Source: Chlorobiota bacterium (GTDB taxonomy: Bacteria; Bacteroidota; Bacteroidia; Bacteroidales; JAADGE01). Taken from it: a stretch of DNA of 32,300 nucleotides. The notes beneath the pieces are model-generated. The model worked only from the letters and a program-made list of their open reading frames with translations, was not told where the DNA came from and searched no databases. The first letter of the stretch is position 1. Each line of letters starts with the position of its first letter. This document shows, piece after piece, positions 10,547 to 26,172 of the stretch. Location of the stretch: contig JAADDR010000150.1 in the NCBI GenBank assembly GCA_013153865.1, forward strand, positions 1 through 32,300. Direction: 5' to 3'. Both the position numbers and the translations under genes were made by a program.

Positions 10547-11182
10547 TCAGCTTAAAAAAGGGTTATGTCTTTTTTCGAAACCGATTTCCGTTTCGGGACC
10601 GTGTCCGGGGTAAACGATAAAATCGTCGGGTAAAGCAAAAAGTTTTGTTTTTATGCCGGATATAAGTGTGTCGTAATCTCCTCCGGGCAGGTCGGTTCGT
10701 CCGATGCTGCCTTTAAAAAGCACGTCGCCGACTACGGCAAATTTATCGGCGGGCGAATAAAATACAAGACTTCCGGCAGTATGACCGGGGACGTGTAATA
10801 TTTTCAGTTCGGAATATCCGAATTTTACGGTGTTGTTTTCGTCTAAAAAATGTTTTACGGGATACGGTTTTTCCATTTTTATTCCGTAAAGGTTTGCGGC
10901 ATTTACCGAGTTTTCGATATTAAAGACTTCGTCTTTATGTGCTTCGGTATCGAGATTAAAATTGTCGGCAACGAATTTGTTTCCGAAAACGTGGTCGAGG
11001 TGGCAATGTGTGTTTAGAAGTTTGACGGGTTTAAGATTTTTTGATTTTATGAAGTCGAGCAGATAATTTTGTTCTTGTTTGTTGTTGCAAGCGGGGTCTG
11101 TTATCACGCATTCTTTTGATTTGTCGGAAATAACGTATGTGTTTACTTCGAAAGTGCTGAATATTAAGCGGTGTATTTTCAT
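10547..11182 (-). CDS. MBL-fold hydrolase, glyoxalase II-like
   Basis: This 211-residue metallo-beta-lactamase-fold enzyme has the full binuclear metal set: THCHLDH with H59, H61, D63 and H64, then PGHTAGS with H134, GDVLF with D153 and PGHGPETEIG with H194. The length and motif spacing fit the short YcbL/GloB-like group, which lacks the C-terminal substrate domain of classical glyoxalase II. Hydrolysis of a glutathione-type or other thioester is therefore plausible but unproven. It is read in the same direction as gcvP, 111 bases upstream of it. Its upstream side is the heptamer-repeat region. Confidence 0.85.
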   Translation of the reverse strand: MKIHRLIFSTFEVNTYVISDKSKECVITDPACNNKQEQNYLLDFIKSKNLKPVKLLNTHCHLDHVFGNKFVADNFNLDTEAHKDEVFNIENSVNAANLYGIKMEKPYPVKHFLDENNTVKFGYSELKILHVPGHTAGSLVFYSPADKFAVVGDVLFKGSIGRTDLPGGDYDTLISGIKTKLFALPDDFIVYPGHGPETEIGFEKRHNPFLS

Positions 11183-11199
11183 TTTTGAGGTTTTGATGT

Positions 11200-11241
11200 T
11201 TGAAACTTGAAACTTGATATTTGAAATTTGGAACTTGAAAT
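11200..11241 (+). repeat. heptamer tandem repeat block 1, TTGAAAY x6
   Basis: Six consecutive 7-base units in register read ttgaaac, ttgaaac, ttgatat, ttgaaat, ttggaac, ttgaaat. The block starts 18 bases upstream of the hydrolase start. Bases 11208-11226 recur exactly at 11367-11385. Confidence 0.8.
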
Positions 11242-11263
11242 TCGGAGGGAAAGTTAGATAAAA

Positions 11264-11340
11264 ATTATGAATTATGAGTTATGAATTATGAGTTATAAAT
11301 TATGAATTATGAATTATAAATTATAAGTTATGAATTGTGA
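11264..11340 (+). repeat. heptamer tandem repeat block 2, RTTATRA x11
   Basis: Eleven consecutive 7-base units fill 77 bases. Nine of the eleven are attatga, gttatga or attataa, and the variants are gttataa and attgtga. No reading frame uses them. The unit length equals that of the flanking blocks although the unit sequence differs. Confidence 0.85.
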
Positions 11341-11351
11341 GGATTGTTTTT

Positions 11352-11386
11352 TTGAAATTTGAGATTTGAAACTTGATATTTGAAAA
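11352..11386 (+). repeat. heptamer tandem repeat block 3, TTGAAAY x5
   Basis: Five 7-base units read ttgaaat, ttgagat, ttgaaac, ttgatat, ttgaaaa. They are of the same type as block 1 and share an exact 19-base segment with it. The block ends about 90 bases before the fucose synthase start. Confidence 0.8.
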
Positions 11387-11475
11387 ACTTATGTAAGAAT
11401 TGCGGGTTATATTTTTATTTAGAAAGATAAGAAATTTTTGTTTATTTTGAATTTTTGGAAAAAGTTACTTAAAAA

Positions 11476-12585
11476 ATGGATGTAAATACAAAAATATACG
11501 TTGCCGGAAGCGGCGGTTTGGTAGGAAGTGCGATAGTTCGTAATTTAGAATCGAAAGGATATAAAAATCTTGTTTTTACTCCTCATTCCGAGTATGATTT
11601 AAGAAATCAAAATACGGTAAGAGATTTTTTCGAGAGGGAAAAACCGGAAGTTGTATTTACGGCGGCGGCAAAGGTTGGCGGAATAGTTGCGAATAATACT
11701 TACCGTGCGGAGTTTATTTACGATAATCTTCAAATTCAGAATAATATAATTCATCAATCTTATTTAAGCGGCGTAAAGAAGTTGCTTTTTTTGGGGAGTT
11801 CGTGTATTTATCCGAAGAACAGTCCGCAACCGATGAAAGAAGAATATTTGCTTACTTCGGAGCTTGAATATACCAACGAACCGTATGCTGTTGCGAAAAT
11901 TGCCGGCATAAAAATGATTGAGAGTTATAATTTGCAATACGGTACTGATTTTTTGGCGGTTATGCCTACCAATTTATACGGATATAACGATAATTTTGAT
12001 TTGGAGAAATCTCATGTTTTGCCGGCATTAATCAGAAAAATGCATCTTGCAAAAGCTCTTAATGAAGATGTTTTTTGTTTTATACGTCAGGATTTGAACA
12101 AAATGCCGGTAGAAGGTATAGACGGAAGTGCGGAAAAAGCCGATATAGTGAGAGTGTTAAAAAAATACGGTATAAGTAAAAATAAAGTTGTGCTTTGGGG
12201 CAGCGGAAAACCTCGCAGGGAATTTTTGCATGCCGACGATTTAGCCGATGCTTGTGTTTATATTGCCGAAAATATCGACTTTGAAGATATTCTGAAAAAG
12301 AATTTTAATATTGAAAATCCGGAATTTCCTTTAACGGATAAAGAGGTAAGAAATACTCATATCAATATAGGAACCGGAAAGGATATTTCGATAAAAGAGC
12401 TTGCAGAATTGATAAAAAATGAAGTGGTAGAGTTTAACGGCGAAATAGTTTGGGATGAGAGCATGCCCGACGGAACATATCAAAAATTGCTGGATGTAAG
12501 TAAATTGCGCGAATTAGGATGGAGTGCGAAGACGGATTTTTTAAGCGGATTAAAAGATGTTTATCAAAAATATAAGCAATATTAA
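11476..12585 (+). CDS. fcl: GDP-L-fucose synthase
   Basis: This enzyme is a bifunctional epimerase/reductase turning GDP-4-keto-6-deoxymannose into GDP-L-fucose for surface glycans. It is an extended short-chain dehydrogenase of 369 residues. The NADP motif is GSGGLVG at 11-17, the catalytic Ser lies in GSSCIYP (107-113, with C110 the usual second catalytic residue), and the YxxxK pair is Y137/K141. The WGSGKPRREFLH substrate loop is present. It is longer than the roughly 320-residue enterobacterial enzyme because of an insert at about residues 195-230 and another at about 268-285, as I recall for Bacteroides homologues. The partner gmd is not adjacent. It converges on the propeller gene with only 6 bases between the stops. 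Confidence 0.93.
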   Translation: MDVNTKIYVAGSGGLVGSAIVRNLESKGYKNLVFTPHSEYDLRNQNTVRDFFEREKPEVVFTAAAKVGGIVANNTYRAEFIYDNLQIQNNIIHQSYLSGVKKLLFLGSSCIYPKNSPQPMKEEYLLTSELEYTNEPYAVAKIAGIKMIESYNLQYGTDFLAVMPTNLYGYNDNFDLEKSHVLPALIRKMHLAKALNEDVFCFIRQDLNKMPVEGIDGSAEKADIVRVLKKYGISKNKVVLWGSGKPRREFLHADDLADACVYIAENIDFEDILKKNFNIENPEFPLTDKEVRNTHINIGTGKDISIKELAELIKNEVVEFNGEIVWDESMPDGTYQKLLDVSKLRELGWSAKTDFLSGLKDVYQKYKQY

Positions 12586-21226: not shown

Positions 21227-21240
21227 ATTTTTCGAAGATA

Positions 21241-21367
21241 AAAGTAAAAAGTTGAAAGTGAAAAGTTTAGCAGGTATTTTTGCTTACTTTTTGCATCTCA
21301 AGTTCGGGTTATGGTGTTCTAAGTAAATTATACTGTAATACTTTGAACTTTATATTTTTAACTTTCA
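21241..21367. repeat. heptamer repeats in inverted arms, AAAGTNN x4 and ACTTTNN x4
   Basis: Bases 21241-21268 read aaagtaa, aaagttg, aaagtga, aaagttt. Bases 21340-21367 read actttga, actttat, attttta, actttca. The second array is the reverse complement type of the first; agttgaaagt (21250-21259) pairs exactly with actttcaact (21361-21370). The arms flank about 70 bases of unremarkable sequence. Confidence 0.7.
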
Positions 21368-26088: not shown

Positions 26089-26172
26089 TAGTTATTAACA
26101 ACTTTTTGTCAATAAAGTTTTATGTTTTGTGTTTTGTATTGATTTACAACCTGTTATAATATTAAAGGGAAT

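Follow-up and report, generated by a model that had tools for sequence, protein, structure and literature searches.

Several kinds of tandem repeats with a unit of seven base pairs have been described in bacteria. The heptamer TAACTGA forms arrays in Beggiatoaceae, in Cyanobacteria and in five Bacteroidetes. These arrays often lie shortly before start codons, and some of those in Bacteroidetes are absent from close relatives (MacGregor 2015, PMC4679880). As relayed in PMC4679880 and PMC4692102, Mrazek (2007) found that a unit length of 7 is over-represented among long simple sequence repeats (LSSRs), and proposed slippage as their origin. In Haemophilus influenzae, the 7-bp repeat ATCTTTC lies in the 5' leader of hmw1A, downstream of the active promoter, and expression of this proven phase-variable surface adhesin gene decreases as the number of repeats increases (PMC8262952). 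The heptamers GGGGA(T/C)T of Nostoc and GGGAATC of Xanthomonas are intergenic repeats whose lengths vary between relatives (PMC4692102).

The preliminary description of the present locus knew of nothing described in Bacteroidota, which is not supported in view of the five Bacteroidetes of MacGregor (2015). The kind of repeat is therefore already known; what is new here are the unit sequences and a well-resolved lineage-specific gain. Like the TAACTGA repeats, the present arrays are 7-bp tandem repeats that are mostly intergenic, lie a few bases before start codons in one orientation, are reversed inside ORFs, have stop codons in all frames, and are absent in some close relatives, with other heptamers in the same gaps (PMC4679880). 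They differ in their units, RTTATRA and TTGAAAY instead of TAACTGA, in that one gap holds two unit families, and in that an alignment shows the ancestral short gap. Searching the literature for the unit string in repeated form gave no match. As with the heptanucleotide LSSRs, they are head-to-tail 7-bp tandems beyond chance and period 7 is over-represented, but compared with what is relayed of Mrazek (2007) the genome-wide excess in the present genus is only modest. The geometry of hmw1A, with 7-bp repeats between promoter and start codon and a unit that is also G-free in the sense strand, resembles that of the probable leader described below; however, here the gene encodes a hydrolase, and its promoter is placed by alignment only. 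The Nostoc and Xanthomonas repeats are likewise heptameric, intergenic and of different length between relatives, but they are G-rich and quadruplex-forming, whereas the present arrays are AT-rich.

Three heptamer blocks in one divergent gap

The window, i.e. the whole stretch of 32,300 nucleotides that was analysed, contains the arrays between divergent genes, as had been noted before: a hydrolase gene on the minus strand and an epimerase gene of the fucose synthase type on the plus strand (Table 1). According to both the sequence and Tandem Repeats Finder, the 293-bp gap between them is filled by three blocks of period 7. The positions and copy numbers reported earlier (6, 11 and 5) are confirmed by both, with the qualification that the TTGAAAY units are imperfect, since TTGATAT, TTGGAAC, TTGAGAT and TTGAAAA are also present. 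The core of block 1 spans 11200-11241, but period 7 reaches back to 11191, which leaves a distance of 9 bp to the start of the hydrolase gene; the final unit of block 2 (11264-11340) reads ATTGTGA, and the units of block 3 lie at 11352-11386. Blocks 1 and 3 have an exact segment in common, which measures 20 bases and not 19 as previously given. The period-7 structure of the gap is beyond chance: its highest score for period 7 is 43.5, whereas none of 1000 Markov shuffles scores above 17.5, and there are 157 lag-7 matches, against a shuffle mean of 99.7 (sd 8.9).

Table 1. Features of the hydrolase/fucose synthase region (positions in the window)
Feature	Position	Strand	Evidence
Metallo-beta-lactamase-fold hydrolase gene	10547..11182	-	PF00753
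Stretch of ~210 bp probably gained in this lineage relative to congeners	11183..11395		Congener gap of 65-80 bp aligns to 11396-11475
Block 1, TTGAAAY-type 7-bp tandem array	11191..11242	+	Tandem Repeats Finder, sequence
20-nt segment TTGAAACTTGATATTTGAAA, copy 1 (block 1)	11207..11226	+	Exact match to copy 2
Block 2, RTTATRA 7-bp tandem array, 11 units	11263..11340	+	Tandem Repeats Finder, sequence
Block 3, TTGAAAY-type 7-bp tandem array, 5 units	11351..11386	+	Tandem Repeats Finder, sequence
20-nt segment TTGAAACTTGATATTTGAAA, copy 2 (block 3)	11366..11385	+	Exact match to copy 1
Retained ancestral divergent promoter region (putative)	11396..11475		Alignment with seven relatives
TATCTTTC, where relatives have the hydrolase -7-like element (TATATTTG or TAACTTTG); no longer matches the consensus	11422..11429	-	Alignment
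TATTTTG, conserved -7-like element of the fucose synthase gene	11443..11449	+	Relatives' alignment
NAD-dependent epimerase gene, GDP-fucose synthase type	11476..12585	+	PF01370

Elsewhere in the window, short 7/14-bp repeats occur at 21234-21267 and 26116-26140, with the units AAAGTTG/AAAGTAA and GTTTTGT, respectively.

The same gene pair in relatives and the hydrolase leader

A search of 12 congeners found the hydrolase in 11, and the divergent pair is readable in many congeners and named MAGs, with proteins of 64-85% identity. After removal of duplicates of the same locus, nine distinct pairs were available for comparison. The gap measures 65-80 bp in seven of them, 195 bp in another and 782 bp in the last, and none of the nine gaps contains a heptamer array. 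The variability proposed for the locus is thus supported between lineages, at the level of other species, by every relative compared. The congener with the 782-bp gap (L177, G009) apparently carries extra short genes there, one of which reads like a PIN-domain (VapC-like) protein.

The short gaps of the seven relatives align to the part of the window next to the fucose synthase gene (Table 1), which suggests that the ~210 bp of repeats were gained in this lineage, directly beside the hydrolase start codon. The earlier proposal that the arrays affect promoter spacing between the divergent genes holds in so far as they alter both spacing and leader length, but they do so on the hydrolase side only; with the ancestral promoter region preserved next to the fucose synthase gene, the arrangement is more specific than what had been claimed. 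The locus offers a clean before/after case, in which the compact divergent promoter of the relatives can be compared with a promoter region moved ~210 bp away from one of its genes.

The promoter consensus of Bacteroidota is TTTG/TAnnTTTG (PMC6847099). Most of the relatives have TATTTTG upstream of the fucose synthase gene, at a distance of 17-27 nt from its start. Upstream of the hydrolase gene, 16-31 nt from its start, all of them except the pair with the 782-bp gap have TATATTTG or TAACTTTG. The first element is conserved in the window. At the site of the second the window reads TATCTTTC, and TAnnTTTG is absent from the hydrolase strand of the entire 293-bp gap, so that the hydrolase promoter has presumably drifted or been replaced. 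For the same reason, we rejected the idea that the arrays themselves carry a TAnnTTTG-type promoter for the hydrolase.

Most likely, the repeats now make up the greater part of the hydrolase leader, which would be about 240 nt long. Read in the hydrolase sense, this leader (238 nt) contains seven G residues and not a single ATG, GTG or TTG, against 26 of these triplets on the other strand, and would therefore add no false start. The lack of start codons is partly due to the low G content, as 177 of 2000 base shuffles of the leader were also free of them. Translation in Bacteroidota initiates without Shine-Dalgarno pairing and needs unstructured, A-rich leaders (PMC6847099), and hence a G-poor leader should be tolerated by these bacteria. 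A structured RNA leader was rejected, given a folding z-score of -0.97 and no Rfam match in the gap.

Period, orientation and turnover of other arrays

RTTATRA arrays occur at about eight places in the 2.5-Mb draft genome and TTGAAAY arrays at about four, while the reverse-read control pattern of RTTATRA has no match in it. Two contigs (C89 and C129 of G000) have their first bases already inside RTTATRA arrays, as expected if assembly breaks there, and some arrays are probably longer than assembled. An excess of the 7-base period in intergenic DNA, as had been anticipated, was found. In stretches from three species of the genus (~1.0 Mb, chosen without bias), period 7 is the commonest below 17, with 11 intergenic arrays, four of them in this window, against at most three for each of the other periods from 3 to 16. 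A wider sample of 80 loci from many taxa (723 kb), which was picked via the fucose synthase gene and contains arrays within that gene, yielded 31 arrays of period 7 against at most nine of any other; one shuffle of this sample gave no period-7 array. The excess is therefore only modest in the own genus and clearly dominant in the wider sample. Sister arrays contain higher-order repeats of 14 and 28 bp, which points to growth in multiples of 7. The longest array in the sampled stretches is one of 228 bp in a congener (L320 6208-6436, G003:C160), consisting mainly of CCTAACT units.

The orientation of arrays was tallied for 60 cases with a gene on either side, pooling all 7-bp units from the relatives and the own genome. 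For 48 of them, the G-richer strand reads away from whichever gene edge is nearer (48:12, p = 3e-6). Among codons within 30 bp of an array, starts lie on the 5' side of the G-richer strand in 28 cases and on the 3' side in four, and stops in 23 and 11, respectively. Of 17 arrays inside genes, 15 have an excess of C over G on the sense strand (15:2). It should be borne in mind that these figures are approximate, since a few arrays are orthologous pairs and ORFs were called mechanically, that most loci were gathered by the RTTATRA pattern, and that two loci of the own genome were counted twice (L035 = L069 and L017 = L070), correction of which gives 46:12 overall and 27:4 for starts. A general depletion of G upstream of genes was rejected as the source of the bias because upstream G and C are nearly equal. 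Units such as TTATGAA and TTTGAAA would bring ATG or TTG codons ahead of a gene and TGA stops within one. The bias is most simply read as a tolerance filter, under which arrays are start-free before genes and stop-free inside them; at the present locus, too, the orientation is one-sided and avoids false start codons.

Array sites turn over to different degrees. At the same place upstream of the carbamoyltransferase gene, congeners have arrays of TTCATAA, CACTAAA or TTTTAAC, or none, and the NIF3-family gene has its TTTCAAA array only in the source genome among the congeners compared. Five array sites are nevertheless common to congeners, so that the arrays are not all transient.

Explanations for the arrays

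We consider it quite probable, judging from the sequence comparisons above, that lineage-specific gain by slippage, with retention by a tolerance filter, is the explanation. Repeats of 7 bp would arise at random and grow by local slippage in multiples of 7. In this lineage, arrays would have expanded beside the start of the hydrolase gene, pushing it away from the retained promoter region, and would now form most of a G-poor hydrolase leader which, free of ATG, GTG and TTG, offers no false start site, so that the array is tolerated. The same filter would operate elsewhere, leaving arrays that point away from starts before genes and are stop-free inside genes. This suggests that much of the placement of heptamer arrays in bacteria may be explicable by what genes tolerate, ahead of any regulatory role.

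A regulatory role is the substance of the first alternative, according to which gain and loss of 7-bp units tunes the expression of the hydrolase, and perhaps of the fucose synthase, and selection maintains the array. The geometry would be that of the hmw1A leader repeat (PMC8262952), and arrays often lie a few bases from start codons; an effect of the array on hydrolase expression is plausible by this analogy. However, the genes adjoining arrays (those for carbamoyltransferase, NIF3, aldolase, amidotransferase, SurE, aromatic lyase, RadC and GTPase) are unrelated housekeeping genes without a common category, so that no regulon is visible among them, and relatives maintain the gene pair without arrays. 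We thus regard selection for tuning as rather unlikely, and any copy-number tuning of the hydrolase is more likely to be a by-product than the reason for the array.

The tolerance filter leaves one feature unexplained, namely the genus-specific mix of units. About one quarter of the units in the own genus are GTTATRA; four other genomes have none, and in one further genome they make up about two thirds. Their share is alike across the loci of a genus and unlike between genera (82% of the variance lies between genomes, permutation p = 2e-4), although the arrays used were gathered by unit pattern, a source of bias in unit statistics. Such a mix is not what independent local slippage predicts, and it is our least explained result. 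It would fit arrays that arise within a genome not by local slippage but as copies, made from other arrays or from a common template and inserted at gene edges in a fixed orientation. So would the finding that in the own genus G-type units stand next to each other less often than expected (2 cases against 8.3, p = 0.003), and the occurrence of one and the same unit in 13 of the 46 genera of the order that were sampled. Against such copying, the arrays of the own genome have no conserved flanks or ends, and inverted repeats of at least 12 nt are absent from 11150-11500, on which ground a mobile element of the MITE or REP type was also rejected. Three-unit words are not shared among non-orthologous loci to a significant extent (p = 0.058), and we rejected such sharing as proof of copying. 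Templated copying therefore has, in our estimation, a small chance of being correct, and its corollary, that the arrays of a genus derive from one source whose unit mix is a genus signature while sites turn over, is similarly improbable.

Iteron-like binding sites for a sequence-specific protein controlling the divergent pair would account for head-to-tail units of constant length and for RTTATRA varying mostly at two positions (in part a product of array selection), but are very improbable, as one gap holds two different units, congeners carry different units at one site, relatives lack the array at this locus, and the array-adjoining genes are of no common kind.

Heptamer arrays are also found in frame within GDP-fucose synthase genes of Bacteroidota, Campylobacterota and a Desulfohalobiaceae MAG (loci L100, L103, L114, L122, L129, L134, L151 and L160). 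They sit at three variable loops, at about residues 38, 236 and 283-310, and their sense strand is G-poor in nearly all cases.
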